DNA of 46,416 nt from a virus (IMGVR_UViG_3300044675_004667:1-46416), one strand, 5' to 3'; shown: positions 3,181-46,416, numbered from the stretch's first letter. The notes: generated by a model not told the origin, from the letters alone. Numbers and translations are program-made.

Positions 3181-3393
3181 ATGACAGCAGTAGAATTTTT
3201 AATTAAGCAGGTCGGTTTAGACCATACAGATGTTTGGAAAAAACAAATTGAAATAGCTTTAGAAATGGAAAAGCAACAGATAATAGAGGCTTATGTAACA
3301 TCACTATCAAAAGAATTTTGGTTTAAAAAAGATGACATATTTAATCAACAAGCCGAACAATACTACAATGAAACCTATAAGCCCTCTGCTTAG
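3181..3393 (+). CDS. conserved phage hypothetical protein (70 aa)
   Basis: I place the start at the ATG giving MTAVEFLIKQ, since this MTAVE(F/W) opening recurs in small proteins of Bacteroidetes phages; an in-frame TTG lies 18 bases upstream. The body is amphipathic helix (EIALEMEKQQIIEAY). No enzymatic motif is visible. It is the last gene before the tRNA-like cluster. Confidence 0.6.
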   Translation: MTAVEFLIKQVGLDHTDVWKKQIEIALEMEKQQIIEAYVTSLSKEFWFKKDDIFNQQAEQYYNETYKPSA

Positions 3394-3465
3394 CGCTGAG
3401 CATGGACCGAAGATGATACGACTAAGTATTCCAAATCGTATGTTGGCACTGTTAGCGTTCAGGGG
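3382..3465 (+). ncRNA. possible structured RNA in the spacer
   Basis: CCCTCTG (3382-3388) can pair, with one bulge, to CAGGGG (3460-3465). Inside it CGCT (3394-3397) pairs with AGCG (3454-3457), and ATACGA (3416-3421) pairs with TCGTAT (3436-3441). The nested stems suggest a folded RNA just upstream of the first tRNA-like element, perhaps a very divergent relative of it. It overlaps the end of the preceding gene. Confidence 0.3.
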
Positions 3466-3487
3466 ATAATTCAAAAACGCATTTTAA

Positions 3488-3592
3488 AGTCCTGTGGCGG
3501 AATTAGACGCAAGGATAGTGACCCCTAAAACTATCAGTTAGCAACTAAACTGCAAGGTGAGGCATTACAGGTATCGAATCCTGTCAGGACTA
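3488..3592 (+). ncRNA. degenerate tRNA-Leu-like element, copy 1
   Basis: A 7-bp acceptor stem AGTCCTG/CAGGACT with discriminator A encloses a D-arm-like segment lacking the two Gs of the D loop (AATTAGAC against AATGGTAGAC in the other copies). The T-arm has one extra A in its loop. The middle has GATAGT (3514-3519) pairing with ACTATC (3530-3535) around a 10-base loop, then CAGTT/AACTG. This is not a canonical anticodon arm. Together with copies 2 and 3 it defines a family; the damage suggests decay or release from tRNA function. Confidence 0.5.
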
Positions 3593-3610
3593 CAAACTAA
3601 AAAAATAGAT

Positions 3611-3706
3611 ATGAATTGGACATTTTTTATTATGGGAATATGTTTTGGTATTTTACTTAATATTGACACCATTAGTGAATGTATTAGTAGATACATTAAG
3701 AGGTAG
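3611..3706 (+). CDS. tiny membrane peptide (31 aa)
   Basis: A short frame starting MNWTFFIMG, with one hydrophobic helix (residues 2-16) and a basic end. It fills the gap between tRNA-like copies 1 and 2. The hydrophobic profile resembles the other tiny membrane proteins in this operon (3024, 5604), but its length makes the call tentative. Confidence 0.35.
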   Translation: MNWTFFIMGICFGILLNIDTISECISRYIKR

Positions 3707-3711
3707 TATAA

Positions 3712-3821
3712 AGTCCTGTGGCGGAATGGTAGACGCTAAGAAGTGAATAGATAAGCATGAATGTTGTCACTTAATAAAATTTTAAATACTTATCATACAG
3801 GTTCGAATCCTGTCAGGACTA
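3712..3821 (+). tRNA. tRNA-Leu-like element, copy 2, non-canonical anticodon domain
   Basis: Acceptor AGTCCTG/CAGGACT plus A, a D-arm GGCGGAATGGTAGACGC typical of bacterial tRNA-Leu, and an intact T-arm ACAGG-TTCGAAT-CCTGT are all present. No 5-bp stem with 7-base loop follows the D-arm. Instead AAGTGA (3741-3746) pairs with TCACTT (3767-3772) around a 20-base loop, and GATAAG inside that loop (3750-3755) can pair with CTTATC (3789-3794), forming an H-type pseudoknot. At 110 nt it is about 25 nt longer than a usual tRNA-Leu. It could be an intron-bearing tRNA or a tRNA mimic. Confidence 0.5.
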
Positions 3822-3846
3822 TTTTTTAACTTGAAACTACTAAACC

Positions 3847-4368
3847 ATGAAAACAATACTTTTAATCTTATCAGTTATACTTTTAACTTCAGCAACATTT
3901 CCCGCGTTAAAAAAACAGCCTGCACCAAAATACATAGATAGCTACATAAAACGCTTTTTAAGAACAGCGCAAAACGAAGCTAAGCTATTTAACATTCCCG
4001 TTAGCATAACACTTGCGCAGGGCATTATAGAAAGCAATGCAGGTCGTTCAGCACTTAGCCGCAAGCATAACAACCACTTTGGTATTAAGCACAGCGGAAA
4101 AGGCAAATATGCAGTTTACCGGGATGATACACCAAGAGACAAATTCCAAGTTTATAAATCGCCGTGGTGGTCATATCGGGCGCATAGTAAACTACTAACT
4201 TCAAAACGTTACAAACACCTCACACGGTTAAATAGATTGAATTATAAAGCATGGGCACACGGTTTAAAAAAGTGCGGTTATGCAACCGAAAAAAAATATG
4301 CTGAAATACTAATTTCTGTAATAGAAAAATACGACCTTTGGCAATATGATTTTCCAATTTTTCCATGA
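3847..4368 (+). CDS. exported GH73-type glucosaminidase (endolysin)
   Basis: A 173-residue wall hydrolase of the FlgJ/GH73 type that cuts N-acetylglucosaminyl bonds in peptidoglycan. A signal peptide or anchor spans residues 1-20. The catalytic domain covers about 38-168, with the likely catalytic Glu62 in QGIIESNAGRS, then NNHFGIKH and the YKSPWWSYRAHS segment typical of the family. It follows tRNA-like copy 2 and overlaps the next gene by 23 bases. With the amidase at 6252 and the lipoprotein at 41480 it is one of three wall-active enzymes; the signal sequence suggests export independent of the holin. Confidence 0.85.
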   Translation: MKTILLILSVILLTSATFPALKKQPAPKYIDSYIKRFLRTAQNEAKLFNIPVSITLAQGIIESNAGRSALSRKHNNHFGIKHSGKGKYAVYRDDTPRDKFQVYKSPWWSYRAHSKLLTSKRYKHLTRLNRLNYKAWAHGLKKCGYATEKKYAEILISVIEKYDLWQYDFPIFP

Positions 4369-4588
4369 CAAAATTAAAGGCGATGAATGGTATGTAGTCG
4401 AACAGTTGCCCGGCGGCAATTATAAAGCTATTTGCACGCGTCAAACTAAAGTTTATAAATTAGGCTCAGTTAGAAACTTTTTTTTCGACGATTGCGAAAT
4501 ATGGACAAAAGGAAAATTAAAACCAAATAATCATTCTTTAACACTAAAAACAAAATACGATGGTAAACCGCGTAACGCTAATCGGTAG
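4346..4588 (+). CDS. hypothetical protein (80 aa)
   Basis: A basic protein starting MIFQFFHDKIKG, with a beta-rich pattern (WYVVEQLPGGNYKAICT) that could be a small barrel. It overlaps the glucosaminidase by 23 bases and the SSB gene by 29 bases in different frames, so it is translated in a compact operon. No recognised family. Confidence 0.6.
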   Translation: MIFQFFHDKIKGDEWYVVEQLPGGNYKAICTRQTKVYKLGSVRNFFFDDCEIWTKGKLKPNNHSLTLKTKYDGKPRNANR

Positions 4589-4916
4589 GGTTGGCAAAGA
4601 ACCTGAACAAAAACAATTTGGCGAAAAAACGCTAACAAAATTTAGCTTTGCAACGTCTGAAAGTAGCAAAGACAAAAACGGCGAATGGCAGGAAAAAACA
4701 CAATGGCATCAAGTCAGCTATTGGAATAACATTACAATTGAAAAGGGCGATATGCTATTCATTGAAGGCAAAGTAGAATACCGTGAGCATGAAGGTAAAT
4801 ACTATACTGATATTATTGCTTCATATTGTAGAAAAATGAACACGGGCCAAAAAGCCACGCCTGTTGAAGTTGAAGTATTGCCAGTTAAAAATAATGATGC
4901 TGATTTGCCTTTTTAA
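4560..4916 (+). CDS. ssb: single-stranded DNA-binding protein
   Basis: A 118-residue OB-fold SSB. The opening MVNRVTLIGRVGKEPE, the KFSFATSE strand, the QWHQVSYW core and the GDMLFIEGKVEYRE strand follow the bacterial family in order. It ends with an acidic DADLPF tip, the tail by which SSBs recruit replication and repair proteins. It coats single strands during phage replication and recombination, fitting the annealing protein and exonuclease at 38293-39594. A terminator lies 69 bases downstream. Confidence 0.93.
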   Translation: MVNRVTLIGRVGKEPEQKQFGEKTLTKFSFATSESSKDKNGEWQEKTQWHQVSYWNNITIEKGDMLFIEGKVEYREHEGKYYTDIIASYCRKMNTGQKATPVEVEVLPVKNNDADLPF

Positions 4917-4984
4917 AACTTGTAAATATAAAATTAAAATCTTATTTTTATTATAGTTTTAGTTTTCATTAGTCTTTGGTTTGG

Positions 4985-5018
4985 ACCGCCTGTTTTTGAA
5001 GTTCAGGCGGTTTTTTTT
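4985..5018 (+). terminator. rho-independent terminator after ssb
   Basis: ACCGCCTG (4985-4992) pairs with CAGGCGGT (5004-5011), an 8-bp stem with an 11-base loop, followed by eight Ts. It ends the ssb transcript. The next gene starts at 5030, so it needs read-through or a promoter I do not recognise. Confidence 0.85.
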
Positions 5019-5029
5019 AAAAGTAAGAT

Positions 5030-5455
5030 ATGTATTTAACATTTGAACAGGCATTTAACATGATTAAGCCAAACGGCGCTAAGAATGCCAACTATTCAGC
5101 AACGAGAATCAGACAGCTTATAAATTTAGGTCATTTAATTGAAGCTAAACCTGAAATTTTTGTCGATGATAATAGCATATTTGTAAGTTTAGGCTACATT
5201 AAAACCGAAGGCTTAGTTACTGAGGAATCAGTCAAAAGATATATTTTTGAGCGCAAAGAACTTAAAAACAAGTTAGGTAAGATTCCGAAAAAGAACCGCG
5301 AAGTTAAGGCATATTTTGAAGATGATAGCTATAGTAATTTTATGTCAATTGATGCAGCATGTTTATTTTTTGGCATATCAAGGGATAAGATAATGCGCAG
5401 TATTGAAAAGAAAAAATTTATTAAGGTTAAGAATGAATTGATTAAGTTTGTATAG
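5030..5455 (+). CDS. DNA-binding protein with C-terminal NUMOD-like repeat
   Basis: A 141-residue protein. The N-terminal half (YLTFEQAFNMIKP, RIRQLINLGHLIEAKP) looks like a winged-helix or excisionase-type reader. The C-terminal 50 residues (VKAYFEDDSYSNFMSIDAAC then GISRDKIMRSIEKKKFI) resemble NUMOD1/IENR1 helix-turn-helix repeats known from intron-encoded nucleases. No nuclease domain is attached. The stop codon runs two bases into tRNA-like copy 3. A free-standing NUMOD-like reader beside tRNA-like elements could point to former mobile-element activity; that is inference. Confidence 0.55.
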   Translation: MYLTFEQAFNMIKPNGAKNANYSATRIRQLINLGHLIEAKPEIFVDDNSIFVSLGYIKTEGLVTEESVKRYIFERKELKNKLGKIPKKNREVKAYFEDDSYSNFMSIDAACLFFGISRDKIMRSIEKKKFIKVKNELIKFV

Positions 5456-5589
5456 TCCTGTGGCGGAATGGTAGACGCAAGTGTTAAAATAGTATAAGGT
5501 AAACTATTAAATGCTCCTTGTAAGTTACGGTATGAAATGTGAATCCATTTTGCTTTAGCGCATTACAGGTTCGAATCCTGTCAGGACTA
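5454..5589 (+). tRNA. tRNA-Leu-like element, copy 3, expanded anticodon domain
   Basis: The acceptor stem, D-arm and T-arm match copy 2 base for base, but 136 nt separate the ends. Possible inner pairings are AATAGT (5488-5493) with ACTATT (5503-5508) around a 9-base loop, TAAGG in that loop with CCTTG (5516-5520) as a pseudoknot, and AATGC (5510-5514) with GCATT (5560-5564) closing a long variable-type arm. An alternative outer pair is CAAG/CTTG. No canonical anticodon loop is seen. An intron, an enlarged variable arm or a tRNA mimic are the options. Confidence 0.5.
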
Positions 5590-7135: not shown

Positions 7136-7523
7136 AGAAAAAAAAGCGGCACTAATTGCAAAAGTTGGTGAGCAAAAAGTAAACGAATTGACGCAAAACA
7201 TTTGGTTGTTATTGGGTGCTTTAAGAACTGCGAAATATGCTATTGCACAGTTCGAACCTAATAAGCTAAAGTTTGAAATGAAAAAGCGTTTTTTAGATTT
7301 GCATACAGCTATAAACCTATTTGTTAATACATTTGAAAAGGCTGCAAATCCTGAAGAACGCGAACTATTAAATACTACTTCTTATGAAAACGTTGGCGCT
7401 GTTGCTGAACTGATAGCCATGGCAATAACTTTGCCTGAATCGCAGATTGAATGGTATTTAGATGAATGTAAAAAATTAACTTATGTAGCTTTTAATAGGT
7501 CACAAGATGAATTGCGTAGTTGA
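7125..7523 (+). CDS. hypothetical helical protein (132 aa)
   Basis: An alpha-helical protein (MTNEEKKAALIAKVGEQKVN, then FEKAANPEERELLN). No catalytic motif. It overlaps the previous gene by 11 and the next by 17 bases, consistent with coupled translation in the early operon. I do not recognise its family. Confidence 0.65.
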   Translation: MTNEEKKAALIAKVGEQKVNELTQNIWLLLGALRTAKYAIAQFEPNKLKFEMKKRFLDLHTAINLFVNTFEKAANPEERELLNTTSYENVGAVAELIAMAITLPESQIEWYLDECKKLTYVAFNRSQDELRS

Positions 7524-9051: not shown

Positions 9052-9276
9052 TTAGTCTATTGGTGGGAATGGTGGTTCGGGTTTAGGTTTATATTCTATC
9101 AAAGGTAATGTTTTTACCCATTGAAATTCAGGATTAACGCAAAATTCCATTTCTTCAACTGAAATTATCCAATCATCATTTGCATCCTGAATTGGGTTAA
9201 AATAACTGTCTTCATCATAAAGCTGACCGGCCAAGCTATCTTTTTCTGCTATTGTTAAAAGTCCAACGTATATCAT
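9052..9276 (-). CDS. small tail-fibre-associated hypothetical protein (74 aa)
   Basis: Starts MIYVGLLTIAEKDSLAGQLY, with several acidic residues and a Pro-rich C-terminus (KPKPEPPFPPID). The start overlaps the stop of the large fibre gene by four bases. Such small proteins after fibre genes are often assembly chaperones or caps; that is only positional inference. Confidence 0.6.
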   Translation of the reverse strand: MIYVGLLTIAEKDSLAGQLYDEDSYFNPIQDANDDWIISVEEMEFCVNPEFQWVKTLPLIEYKPKPEPPFPPID

Positions 9277-10865
9277 ATTCTTCCTAAAGTTGTGTTATAT
9301 GTTAATATTGCATTTCTCAAACTTAATCCTTCTGCTGCTGATAAACCATCTCCTAAACTATGAAAAGCAATTGACATAATAGCATAGTTGGATGCCGTTC
9401 CAGAACCATTGTGAGCAGCAAGATAGCAAGTTAAAGAAGGTAAAGCATTAGTTGCTGTAGTTGTAGTTGGCGTTGTTGAAGTTCCATCAGCTTTAACTAT
9501 AAACATATTGTTATTAGCTGTTCTGGATGATGCCCTAAATCCTTTTAATGAAGATGCTGTAACTGGTGTTTCAGTATTTATTATAGCTAAATCTCTAAAT
9601 GTTAATGTTGCTCCAGATGATTCTATTGTTGTTCTAAAATTTGATGAACTAACACTTTGCGCCCCACCCATACTTCTTAACCCTGTACCTGAGTTATCTG
9701 TATTGTGATAAAAAGCATGATGATGCGAAAATTGTTGAAGCATAGTATTAGCATTCAAAAATGTATCAGCATAACCATTTGTACCATTTGGCAAAGCACC
9801 AGTAGAAGAATGTGTCCATCCACCTATAAAAGAAAGTCTATACGCTGCATTAGTATCTTGTGGATTTACAAGATTCCATTTGTGCGTAGATGCTGTTCCT
9901 CCAATCATTGGGTATACAGCTCTCATCTTAGTCCAAATGCCAGCTGTTTTTAAATCATTTACAAGAGTATTAACTGCTGACTTTTGAGTGTTATCTGTTA
10001 TTTGTGATGCATATAAGAAAGCATTTGTTTCATTATTATATGCTGTATTGTAATAGTTTGGATTGAAAGGATTAACATTTCTACTTAATTCGTATTGATA
10101 ACCTTCAACTATTTGATTTAATACCAATATCTCAGTATCTGTTAATCCATCTCCTATAGTTGCAAATGCACATTCATTAGGAGTATAATATTGTGGAACA
10201 CCATTATTTGCAGCACCAATATAAAAACTTCTATTATTAGATGTTGCTCCTGAAGCATCCGCAGCATTTAAGATTGTAGTATTATTTTTAAATGCCTTAA
10301 TTATATTACTTGCAGTTCTTGATACAGTATAAAATCCTTGATTGTTACCACCACTACTTACAGAAGTATAAACACCTCCATTATTTAATCTAAAAACAGA
10401 TACACCATTCCAGTCTAATGCAATATCAGAAAAACTATCTGGTCCAGGTCTTAATGCGCCAAAATTTATTTTATAATTATTATCAGTAAAATTTGTTCTA
10501 CTATAAAAAGAAGCATGAATACTATTTAAAGATAGTGAACTTGAAAAGAAAAAAGTATCTGCAAAAGCATTAGTCCCATTAGGTTTTGCACCTGTTGAAC
10601 TGTGTGTCCATCCTCCTGAAAACACCAACCTATAAGCTGCATTAGTATCTAAAGGATTTTTTAAATTCCATTTATGAGTGCTTGCAGTACCACCAACAAA
10701 TGGAAAAATGGCTTGCATTTTAGTCCAAATACCAGCAGCTTTGCAATTTATAACTAAAGTATTTATTGCATTTTTTTGCGTGTTATCTGTTATGCCTGCT
10801 GCCGTGATAAAAGCCTGCGCATCGGGGTCATAAGCAACCCCAAAAGAATAAGGATTTATTATCAT
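9273..10865 (-). CDS. tail fibre/receptor-binding protein with internal duplication
   Basis: A 530-residue protein made of two homologous halves (about 15-255 and 283-530). Both carry ITDNTQK, AGIWTKM, GGTASTHKWNL, DTNAAYRL and GGWTHSSTGA in the same order, then a beta-rich body ending in GDGL(T/S) and an L-rich helix. The pattern fits a concanavalin/LamG-like jelly-roll repeated in tandem, as in adhesins. It lies among the distal tail genes. The DNA looks poor in CpG and more A-rich than its neighbours, as expected of a host-range module recently exchanged. Receptor binding is inferred. Confidence 0.65.
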   Translation of the reverse strand: MIINPYSFGVAYDPDAQAFITAAGITDNTQKNAINTLVINCKAAGIWTKMQAIFPFVGGTASTHKWNLKNPLDTNAAYRLVFSGGWTHSSTGAKPNGTNAFADTFFFSSSLSLNSIHASFYSRTNFTDNNYKINFGALRPGPDSFSDIALDWNGVSVFRLNNGGVYTSVSSGGNNQGFYTVSRTASNIIKAFKNNTTILNAADASGATSNNRSFYIGAANNGVPQYYTPNECAFATIGDGLTDTEILVLNQIVEGYQYELSRNVNPFNPNYYNTAYNNETNAFLYASQITDNTQKSAVNTLVNDLKTAGIWTKMRAVYPMIGGTASTHKWNLVNPQDTNAAYRLSFIGGWTHSSTGALPNGTNGYADTFLNANTMLQQFSHHHAFYHNTDNSGTGLRSMGGAQSVSSSNFRTTIESSGATLTFRDLAIINTETPVTASSLKGFRASSRTANNNMFIVKADGTSTTPTTTTATNALPSLTCYLAAHNGSGTASNYAIMSIAFHSLGDGLSAAEGLSLRNAILTYNTTLGRI

Positions 10866-43896: not shown

Positions 43897-44508
43897 ATGA
43901 TAAACGAAGCTGAAAACTTATTATCAGAACTTAAAGATGAAGCGCTTAAAATGGATGCTTATATTAAAGATGATACTAAGCGCCAAAATTACAGGCAATT
44001 GAAAGAACGGCAACTTTTGACGCTGCAAAATATTATTATTGCACTTGAAGAAAAAGAACAAAGCATTTTTGAAAAGTCAATAACGTTTCCACATTCGAAA
44101 GACTTAGAACAGGTTATTTTAGGCGCTATCTTAGTAGATAATAACGCCCGCGATAAAGTTAATTTTTTAAGTCCTGAACATTTTTATTTTGACAATCATA
44201 AACTTATTTTTGAACTTTGCCAATCGGTTGAAGTAGTAGATATAATTACTGTGGCTGAAAAATTAAAATACCGTTGCGGTGGGCCTGCTTATTTATCTGA
44301 ATTGACTAACCGTGTAGGTAGTTCGGCAAATTTAGAATACCACGCAAGAATACTAATTCAAAAGCATGTGCAGCGCGAATTGATAAAAACATCTGTTGAA
44401 ATGATAAACACAATTATGAATGATACCGAAGACGTTTTTGAAACGGTAAAAAGTCACATGCAAAAAATTAAACAATTTAATATTGGCAAACAAATAATAA
44501 GACAATGA
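43897..44508 (+). CDS. DnaB N-terminal-domain protein without the RecA core (203 aa)
   Basis: A helical N-terminal arm (1-60) precedes a DnaB-N domain (about 66-160): DLEQVILGAILVDNNARDKV, HFYFDNHKLIFELCQSVEVV, GGPAYLSELTNRVGSSANLE, YHARILIQKHVQRELI. In DnaB this domain trimerises and binds primase. The RecA-like motor is absent and the next gene, overlapping by four bases, is the AAA+ ATPase, so the pair may form a split helicase. The left-end copy of this locus lacks the gene. Confidence 0.8.
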   Translation: MINEAENLLSELKDEALKMDAYIKDDTKRQNYRQLKERQLLTLQNIIIALEEKEQSIFEKSITFPHSKDLEQVILGAILVDNNARDKVNFLSPEHFYFDNHKLIFELCQSVEVVDIITVAEKLKYRCGGPAYLSELTNRVGSSANLEYHARILIQKHVQRELIKTSVEMINTIMNDTEDVFETVKSHMQKIKQFNIGKQIIRQ

Positions 44509-46220
44509 AACAAGATAAACTAATTGACTGGGAACAAAAACCAAAACAGCAAGCTAAAAAACCTAAAGCAGAACGCGCACAATCCACAGCACCCGAAACT
44601 GACAAAAAAGGTTTTATAGGTGGTTATTTTAGACCTTTAGGATGGGGAACTGAAGAGGGGCAAATGCTTTACTATTTCTACATACGTTCAACAATGTCGA
44701 TTGTAAAGTTTAAAGCCACAGGACTAAACAAAAATAATTTACTTAGTATAGCACCACTTGAATTTTGGTTATCTACTTTTCCAAACCGCGATAATAGTAA
44801 TTACGATGTTACCACAGCATCGGACTATTTGATAAACTTTTGCAATCATGTTGGATTTTACAATACCGATAACATACGCGGCCGTGGTGCATGGTTAGAA
44901 AAAAACGGCGTTGTATTTCATGCAGGGCAGCAGCTTATTCAAGATAATAATAGATTTGGATTAGGCAGTTTAGATACTAATTATACCTATGTGTATAATA
45001 AAAGCATAGACATGCCTATTGAAAATCCGCTATCTTATGGCGAATCTGCAATGCTGCCAAAACTATTAAGCAAGCTAAATTGGCAAACTAAAGCGGATGC
45101 AATGTTATTAACGGGTTGGTTAGCTTTAGCACCTATTTCAGGCATATTAAAATGGCGGCCTCACGTTTGGATAACGGGCCCAAGGGGAAACGGCAAATCA
45201 TGGGTTTTGGAAAATGTAATAAATGAAGTAATCGGAAACATTGCAGTAAGCGTACAGGGAACAGCGGCAACCGAGCCAGCAGTAAGGCAAAAACTTAATT
45301 CAGATGCATTGCCCGTTACTATTGATGAAGGCGAGGGCAATGATGAAAGAGCAGCGCAAAGAATGCAGGAAATTATCGGATTAGCCAGGGCGGCAAGTAG
45401 TGAAAAAAGCCCTGCAATTGCAAAAGGTGGCAAAGATGGAAAGGCAATTGATTATTTTGTAAGAAGCTGTTTTTTATTTGTAAGCATAAACCCACAGTTA
45501 GTAAATGATTCTGATAAGCGTAGATTTTGCGTTTTAGAACTTAAAAAGTTACCTAATCAGTTAACATTTAGCGAAGTTGAAAAGCTTAGGAATAATGTAA
45601 TATTTGAAGATTTTGGCAAGCGTTTTCAGTCCCGAATGCTAAACTTAGCCGATAGCATTATGAAAAGCATTAAAATATTTACACATGCAGTTTCATTACT
45701 TACTGAAGATAGGGCAGTAGGCGACCAGTTCGGGGCATTGTTGGGCGGTTGGTGGCATACTTGGAATGATAAAATAGTTAGTCCTGAGCAGGCATTAGAA
45801 GAAGCAGCAACTATTTTAGACTTAAGAAAATATGAAGAAGACAAAGAAGAACTGACAGATGAACAAAAATGTTTGCAGCAAATACTAAGTCAAGAAATTC
45901 GCATTGAAACTGAAAACTATGTAGGAACAAAAACCATAGGCGAATTAGTTGAATATGCACATAATTATCAGCCTGCTATTAAACCATCACAAGCGGAGGC
46001 AAACGAAAGGTTAATGCGTTTAGGAATCCGCGTAATAAATGATGACTTATTGATACTAAACACATCTGTTTATGTAAAAAAAGTTCTAAGCGGCACACCT
46101 TGGCAAATATCATGGAATACTATCTTATTAAGGCTAAAAGGCGCATCAAGGCGAAGTAATACGCGTTTTGCGGCTGGCATGTCGGGAAGGTGTGTTTCAA
46201 TAAATTTAAAAAATTTATAA
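44505..46220 (+). CDS. AAA+ ATPase, replication primase/helicase-like (right copy)
   Basis: Colinear with the protein at 466-2181 over all 571 residues and identical in Walker A (GPRGNGKS), Walker B (TIDE) and the FVSINPQLVNDSDKRRF sensor region. Most nucleotide differences are synonymous; clusters of amino-acid change lie in the N-terminal tail and around residues 180-190 and 345-365. It is translationally coupled to the DnaB-N gene. It would be the genuine genomic copy if the contig is closed at 46308. Role as for the left copy. Confidence 0.75.
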   Translation: MKQDKLIDWEQKPKQQAKKPKAERAQSTAPETDKKGFIGGYFRPLGWGTEEGQMLYYFYIRSTMSIVKFKATGLNKNNLLSIAPLEFWLSTFPNRDNSNYDVTTASDYLINFCNHVGFYNTDNIRGRGAWLEKNGVVFHAGQQLIQDNNRFGLGSLDTNYTYVYNKSIDMPIENPLSYGESAMLPKLLSKLNWQTKADAMLLTGWLALAPISGILKWRPHVWITGPRGNGKSWVLENVINEVIGNIAVSVQGTAATEPAVRQKLNSDALPVTIDEGEGNDERAAQRMQEIIGLARAASSEKSPAIAKGGKDGKAIDYFVRSCFLFVSINPQLVNDSDKRRFCVLELKKLPNQLTFSEVEKLRNNVIFEDFGKRFQSRMLNLADSIMKSIKIFTHAVSLLTEDRAVGDQFGALLGGWWHTWNDKIVSPEQALEEAATILDLRKYEEDKEELTDEQKCLQQILSQEIRIETENYVGTKTIGELVEYAHNYQPAIKPSQAEANERLMRLGIRVINDDLLILNTSVYVKKVLSGTPWQISWNTILLRLKGASRRSNTRFAAGMSGRCVSINLKNL

Positions 46221-46238
46221 AAATTTTTATAAAAATAG

Positions 46239-46268
46239 TTTGAAATATAAAAAAGCGTTGTATCTTCG
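46239..46268 (+). promoter_or_regulatory. promoter, diverged counterpart of 2199-2229
   Basis: TTTG (46239-46242) is followed after 18 bases by TATCTTCG (46261-46268). The element differs in many bases from the left copy but keeps both motifs and nearly the same spacing. It precedes the partial gene at 46311. Confidence 0.5.
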
Positions 46269-46307
46269 TGTCAGGATTTGATTTATAACACAACAAAAAA
46301 ACTTCAG

Positions 46308-46416
46308 ATTATGACAACTTCAGAAAAACTTAGCAAGCAGTTTACAAAACTTAACAAAGAATATGTTAAAATTGATAAGCAAATGAATGCAATTGCAATG
46401 ACACAATGCACTTGGG
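46308..46416. repeat. 109-bp repeat at the right end
   Basis: Identical to 2269-2377. Upstream of it the two loci differ in many positions, downstream the window ends. This gives a circle of 44,039 bp if joined. Confidence 0.9.
46311..46416 (+). CDS. partial copy of the 58-aa protein gene
   Basis: The first 35 codons (MTTSEKLSKQ...) are identical in DNA to the gene at 2272-2448 and the frame runs off the right edge. It is most likely the same gene seen twice through circular closure. Confidence 0.6.
   Translation, partial: MTTSEKLSKQFTKLNKEYVKIDKQMNAIAMTQCTW

Follow-up and report, generated by a model that had tools for sequence, protein, structure and literature searches.

The tRNA-like fold is itself already known, and the described systems closest to the elements reported here share some of their features and lack others. 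The tRNA-like structures of plant viruses likewise represent viral tRNA mimicry with pseudoknots; they occupy the 3' termini of RNA genomes and build their acceptor through a pseudoknot, whereas in our case the acceptor is an ordinary 5'/3' helix and the carriers are DNA phages. In tmRNA, pseudoknots also lie between tRNA-like ends, but its D domain is reduced, it contains a tag reading frame and it is far longer. Canonical tRNA-Leu (RF00005, type II) has the same acceptor, D arm and T arm, including A73, U8/A14, A15-U48 and the D-loop GG, whereas our elements have neither an anticodon arm nor a normal variable arm and hold instead a structured module of 20-150 nt that is hypervariable and swapped between phages. 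The artificial tRNA-scaffold RNAs of recombinant RNA expression in E. coli, in which a foreign module replaces the anticodon stem, are engineered, and we propose the phage family as their natural counterpart. To our knowledge, no known kind of RNA combines constant tRNA ends, hypervariable covarying inserts and cassette exchange, and it is this combination that appears to be new. Among phage-borne noncoding RNAs, pseudo-ToxI mimics the RNA antitoxin of a type III system and evolves via recombination (PMC3475682); it is a repeat array without a tRNA shell and has one target family, whereas here constant tRNA ends enclose 171 unrelated inserts. GOLLD and ROOL (PMC12286853) are structured phage noncoding RNAs as well and often lie near tRNA islands, but they are hundreds of nt long, have conserved architectures and lack a tRNA shell, and no Rfam match to either was found in the loci scanned.

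The window, i.e. the whole stretch of 46,416 nt analysed here, is a virus record with genes for terminase, DnaB-like helicase, sigma factor, SSB, endolysin and amidase. The three elements that the initial annotation had reported in it were borne out with their lengths and their common acceptor, D and T arms (Table 1). All three share the acceptor AGTCCTG/CAGGACT and a tRNA-Leu D arm, begin with AGTCCTG-TGGCGGAATGGTAGACGC and end with ACAGG-TTCGAAT-CCTGT-CAGGACT-A, which comprises the T arm, the acceptor strand and the discriminator, and their middles measure about 56, 60 and 86 nt, respectively. Element 1 looks like a decayed copy, with a D loop that lacks GG and a T loop of 8 nt, and an undamaged counterpart is present in a related phage (L007). 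The absence of a normal anticodon arm was likewise confirmed: ARAGORN reported 0 tRNAs and 0 tmRNA in the window, a 5-bp/7-nt anticodon arm with U33 is absent from all three elements, and the Rfam tRNA model RF00005 (gathering score 29) fits element 2 (40.6 bits) and element 3 (38.1 bits) solely by skipping the centre and does not report element 1. Neither ARAGORN nor Rfam gave a tmRNA covariance match in the window, and beyond tRNA a permissive Rfam threshold returned only chance opposite-strand matches in the window region (SAM-III, TP53TG1). The two-arm pattern matched once in the window and in 0 of 100 shuffles, and since the family is also seen again in hundreds of phage contigs, chance can be excluded.

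Table 1. Features of the window that are discussed in the text, with positions counted from its first nucleotide.
Feature	Position	Strand	Description
Element 1	3488..3592	+	105 nt; tRNA-Leu-like shell, insert class 1; damaged copy
Element 1 insert, hairpin GATAGT/ACTATC	3514-3519/3530-3535	+	insert class 1
Element 1 insert, hairpin CAGTT/AACTG	3535-3539/3548-3552	+	insert class 1
Element 2	3712..3821	+	110 nt; intact tRNA-Leu-like shell, insert class 2
Element 2 pseudoknot, S1, AAGTGA/TCACTT	3741-3746/3767-3772	+	kept by MFE and centroid
Element 2 pseudoknot, S2, GATAAG/CTTATC	3750-3755/3789-3794	+	position enriched family-wide
Endolysin gene	3847..4368	+	ATG at 3847, 26 nt downstream of element 2
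Element 3	5454..5589	+	136 nt; intact tRNA-Leu-like shell, insert class 3
Element 3 insert, core helix	5481-5485/5510-5514	+	from covariation alignment
Element 3 insert, core hairpin	5490-5493/5503-5506	+	2 pairs changed on both sides
Element 3 insert, core pseudoknot	5496-5499/5516-5519	+	2 pairs changed on both sides

The elements belong to a large virus-borne family, which is apparently undescribed: the literature searched, with incomplete coverage, contained no description of it, and there is no Rfam family. IMG/VR was scanned for the two arms separated by a gap of 40-101 nt, with the acceptor strands left free in the pattern; counts from these scans are lower bounds, and the raw numbers are inflated by near-identical contigs. 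Among at least 261 matches parsed in the fetched loci, 217 had 7/7 acceptor and 5/5 T-stem pairs, and at least 236 elements passed a cut of 6/7 acceptor and 4/5 T-stem pairs, yielding 171 unrelated middles among the matches listed. The D arm and T loop were set by most search patterns and their conservation is thus partly selected for. Among the same 171 distinct-middle elements listed, acceptors were perfect in 160 and represented 51 different sequences, position 48, just 5' of the T stem, was U in 165 (96%, compared with 26% U in middles), and the discriminator was A73 in 145 (85%, compared with 34% A in middles). As U48 and A73 are conserved though free in the search, the tRNA body is under selection. 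The family has the acceptor, T-arm and D-arm pairing of a canonical tRNA, and the losses of pairing and of conserved positions that mark pseudogenes were not seen in the family as a whole, the acceptors being compensated and U48 and A73 kept; in this test element 1 alone had a decayed appearance. The earlier suggestion that constant ends with variable middles reflect a selected tRNA mimic is supported, on a scale far beyond three copies.

A second scan used the T arm and the acceptor 3' strand alone, which avoids the bias of the D-arm pattern. Its matches in new loci had a 7/7 partner strand upstream in 97 of 103 cases, and in 86 of 95 distinct elements this acceptor 5' strand was AGTCAGG itself, a constancy of AGTCAGG/CCTGACT that goes beyond pairing and may reflect a specific binding protein or recombination. 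Several types of D arm were found among these matches, including clearly non-Leu ones, and since the D arm varies, the constant part of the shell is the acceptor plus the T arm, i.e. the upper half of a tRNA. Among the D arms, the Leu-like type is a common one but not the only one, so that the label tRNA-Leu given by the initial annotation fits the window elements but not the wider family, and a strict view of the family as Leu-like only was given up after this unbiased scan. Within one phage record, the same T arm and acceptor can recur in up to 9 elements.

The middles are folded, often as pseudoknots, and covarying pseudoknots occur in two insert classes, one of them that of element 3. For the fold statistics, each cluster of middles was represented once and compared with dinucleotide-preserving shuffles. 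Solutions with two crossing helices were stronger than in the shuffles (z -7.7), as were, to a lesser degree, nested ones (z -5.0). The 3' strand of the second stem (S2) ended exactly 2 nt ahead of the T stem in 48 cases where 15.1 were expected, and the 5-mer at that position had an exact Watson-Crick complement within its own middle in 49 of 171 elements, compared with 9.3 +/- 3.1 when partners were permuted. In a 33-nt insert class (L193, L312, L313 and L295), an H-type pseudoknot was found in which both stems change together and the loops stay nearly constant. Its alignment of 4 sequences has 8 pairs with all cells paired, 3 of them doubly changed, and that of the element 3 core with its relative L344 (3 sequences) has all cells paired with 4 doubly changed pairs and 0 in slid controls; with alignments of only 4 and 3 sequences, the strength of this covariation lies in its agreement with the family-wide statistics.

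For the window elements, the initial annotation had placed in copies 2 and 3 a hairpin whose loop pairs just before the T arm. This holds for element 2, where S1 is crossed by S2 and the latter ends 2 nt ahead of the T stem. Element 3 does have a pseudoknot, supported by covariation, but it lies about 45 nt before the T arm. An 8-bp end helix considered for element 3 was dropped in favour of the covarying core, and no pseudoknot could be defined in the insert of element 1, which folds into two hairpins.

The inserts behave as cassettes that are exchanged between phages. In L180 and L103, unrelated inserts occupy the same slot between flanks that are 95.5 and 99.5% identical over 400 nt, and L098 and L041 differ in the same manner from L084 and L101 within flanks of about 90-94% identity; around swapped inserts overall, flank identity ranges from 90 to 99%, and the shell arms are kept save for a D-loop variant of one base and a single altered base in the acceptor. 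The slot preceding the endolysin gene, which holds insert 2 in the window, is taken in relatives of the window phage by insert 1 (L007) or insert 3 (L270), with inserts 1 and 3 located elsewhere in the window phage. All three inserts of the window thus recur in other phages, at different sites. The shell around insert 1 is intact in L007, whereas that in L271 is damaged as well. Insert 2 was found in a shell of this type in 12 further phage contigs, the other 9 matches to its 16-base probe being unrelated sequence, and insert 3 recurs in L268-L270 and, in diverged form, in L344. In L268 and L269 the acceptor is chimeric, combining AGTCCTG with CCTGACT, and is likely a scar of recombination.

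Outside uncultivated viruses the family is scarce. Among 84,980 species of bacteria and archaea, the Leu-like form was matched 3 times, in each case on a short contig of a metagenome bin, and the T arm with acceptor was found in 1 of 395 genomes of one phylum, this one being the seed itself. Searches of 50,697 named phage records, including BLAST with whole elements, returned only ordinary tRNA arms among the matches listed. The family is thus virus-borne, with almost none in named phages and bacterial genomes.

Our preferred explanation, to which we give roughly an even chance, is that the elements are tRNA-jacketed small RNAs with hypervariable structured modules acting in phage-host conflict; the expression, the processing and the conflict role are what we infer. 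The shell, made up of the acceptor stem, the T arm, usually the D arm, U48 and A73, would fold as a tRNA body. Since the upper half of a tRNA is the part recognised by RNase P, RNase Z and the CCA enzyme, the shell should free the RNA and shield it: excision would probably be carried out by the RNase P and RNase Z of the host, and in some members a host-type promoter would start transcription at the shell. A processing tag for these two RNases, as suggested earlier, is plausible for the role of the shell but fails to explain the inserts. The hypervariable structured module, mostly pseudoknotted, would take the place of the anticodon and variable arms and be traded as a cassette through recombination in the conserved arms. 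Folded modules that turn over this fast while their shells stay constant, with several such elements in one phage, read as the product of an arms race; the modules would thus most likely be trans-acting, either as protein-binding decoys or as inhibitors of functions of the host or of rival phages, comparable to pseudo-ToxI. Hypervariability by itself is no proof of conflict, and the siting of the elements between codirectional genes also fits a cis role.

Such a cis role would consist of punctuation, with the shell serving as a cleavage signal in polycistronic mRNA at which cuts by RNase P and RNase Z liberate the genes downstream with their short A-rich leaders, the insert being of minor importance. 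We consider this unlikely, though it may hold for many of the elements, and it leaves the inserts unexplained; what speaks for it is the siting of the elements. When ORFs of at least 100 aa are counted, the neighbouring ORFs are codirectional on both sides for 176 of 246 elements. In many elements the 3' end lies 10-35 nt before an ATG and the 5' end no more than 15 nt past a stop codon; the window elements also sit between codirectional genes and end 15-26 nt ahead of an ATG, and the 5' end of element 3 overlaps the stop codon of ORF 5030-5455. However, for 103 of the 246 no ORF of at least 100 aa occurs in the 300 nt to either side, these elements being located in RNA-rich arrays, and the inserts are folded, covary and recur in unrelated contexts, unlike indifferent spacers. 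Some elements moreover appear to have a promoter at their own 5' end, with a transcript starting at or near the shell, judging from a TAnnTTTG box that ends 2-9 nt ahead of the acceptor; of 354 distinct upstream regions, 23 have it there (1.75 expected), a count whose independent number is smaller as several of the box-bearing elements come from related phages. TAnnTTTG is the -7 promoter element of Bacteroidota, and for the subset carrying it the box points to Bacteroidota hosts. A boxA-like leader, TTCTTTGA, was not enriched upstream of the elements (4 compared with 3.4 expected).

The most testable rival is a role in leucylation, in which the shell would be charged by LeuRS or occupy it and the middle would vary because LeuRS ignores it. 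The identity set of E. coli LeuRS consists of A73, A15-U48, G18G19, A20a and the D/T-loop contacts, with the anticodon and variable arms dispensable (PMC9976931). This set is kept by the shell, in which U48 and A73 were free in the search pattern, and A73, A15-U48, G18G19 and A20a are present in elements 2 and 3 and in the Leu-like members but not in element 1 nor in members with other D arms. The occurrence of clearly non-Leu D arms on elements with the same acceptor and T arm weakens this explanation, the antideterminant G73 is found in 18 of the 171 elements among the matches listed, and the folded, covarying and swapped inserts are left unexplained, so that we rate a LeuRS function as rather improbable.

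We assign a similarly low probability to the possibility that the inserts imitate the pseudoknotted RNA antitoxins found in type III toxin-antitoxin systems, thereby neutralising nucleases of the ToxN kind. The compact pseudoknots with A-rich linkers would suit such a function, for which phage pseudo-ToxI is a proven precedent (PMC3475682), but there is no repeat array, Rfam at a permissive threshold found no antitoxin family in the window region, and the variety of folds exceeds the need of one toxin family.

In favour of intron-interrupted tRNAs, as also proposed initially, or of decaying tRNA pseudogenes, RF00005 does pass with an insertion and loops are damaged in element 1 and L271. For the family as a whole both are nevertheless highly improbable: middles of down to 20-36 nt leave no room for an intron, the 33-nt middle is fully taken up by a covarying pseudoknot, a canonical anticodon arm is possible in 2 of the 95 distinct elements of the T-arm and acceptor scan, and compensated acceptors, U48, A73 and covarying inserts speak of selection. 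The lack of an anticodon loop that could be cut speaks against a decoy for anticodon nucleases, another of the initial proposals, and decoys of other kinds are conceivable.

Taking tRNA-jacketed, trans-acting RNAs as the preferred reading, we further suggest, tentatively and with somewhat less than even confidence, that uncultivated phages, at least partly of Bacteroidota, carry an unrecognised RNA arsenal of up to nine or more RNAs per phage, which would share one acceptor/T-arm shell, hold different cassette-swapped modules and target, in trans, proteins of the host or of rival phages. If so, phages would have used the tRNA scaffold before biotechnology did, expressing a large and fast-changing set of structured RNAs. 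This would constitute a major unexplored class of viral noncoding RNA and a source of natural pseudoknot modules ready-packaged for expression, give a handle on the host proteins targeted by the modules, and partly account for the odd 'tRNA' calls made in the tRNA islands of phages and for the RNA-rich gaps there.

Several further observations were made at the loci of the family. Of 361 elements, 20 carry a covarying hairpin, TGACA-[4-5 bp]-GAAAGA-[4-5 bp], exactly 4-5 nt ahead of the acceptor, where 0.5 would be expected, with examples in L192, L183, L332, L267, L281, L006 (5041-5064) and others. Structured inserts also occur in the D loop, instead of or besides those in the anticodon region (L077 4272-4460, L222 14001-14075, L108 843, L284 1232 and L310 588). 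In all shells, CAGG/CCTG is common to the acceptor and the T stem, making alternative inter-helix pairing possible. Dense canonical tRNAs, tRNA-like RNAs and further structured-looking noncoding RNAs fill L010 1-4957 and L222 9500-14100, and a phage-borne tmRNA (63 bits) adjoins an element at L012 5468-5866.

In the window itself, the noncoding block 3385-3487 that precedes element 1 has no significant fold (z -0.28) and is kept in L007 at 7370-7480, there without an element after it. The window ends, 453-2377 and 44492-46416, are repeats of each other with a constant spacing of 44039 and 80-96% identity where aligned; they include two 571-aa ORFs, the first primase-like, and represent either a true duplication or a strain-variant overlap in a circular genome. 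Direct repeats of 254 nt with 71% identity (9757-10010 and 10549-10802) lie inside ORF 9273-10865 and perhaps encode a repeated protein domain.
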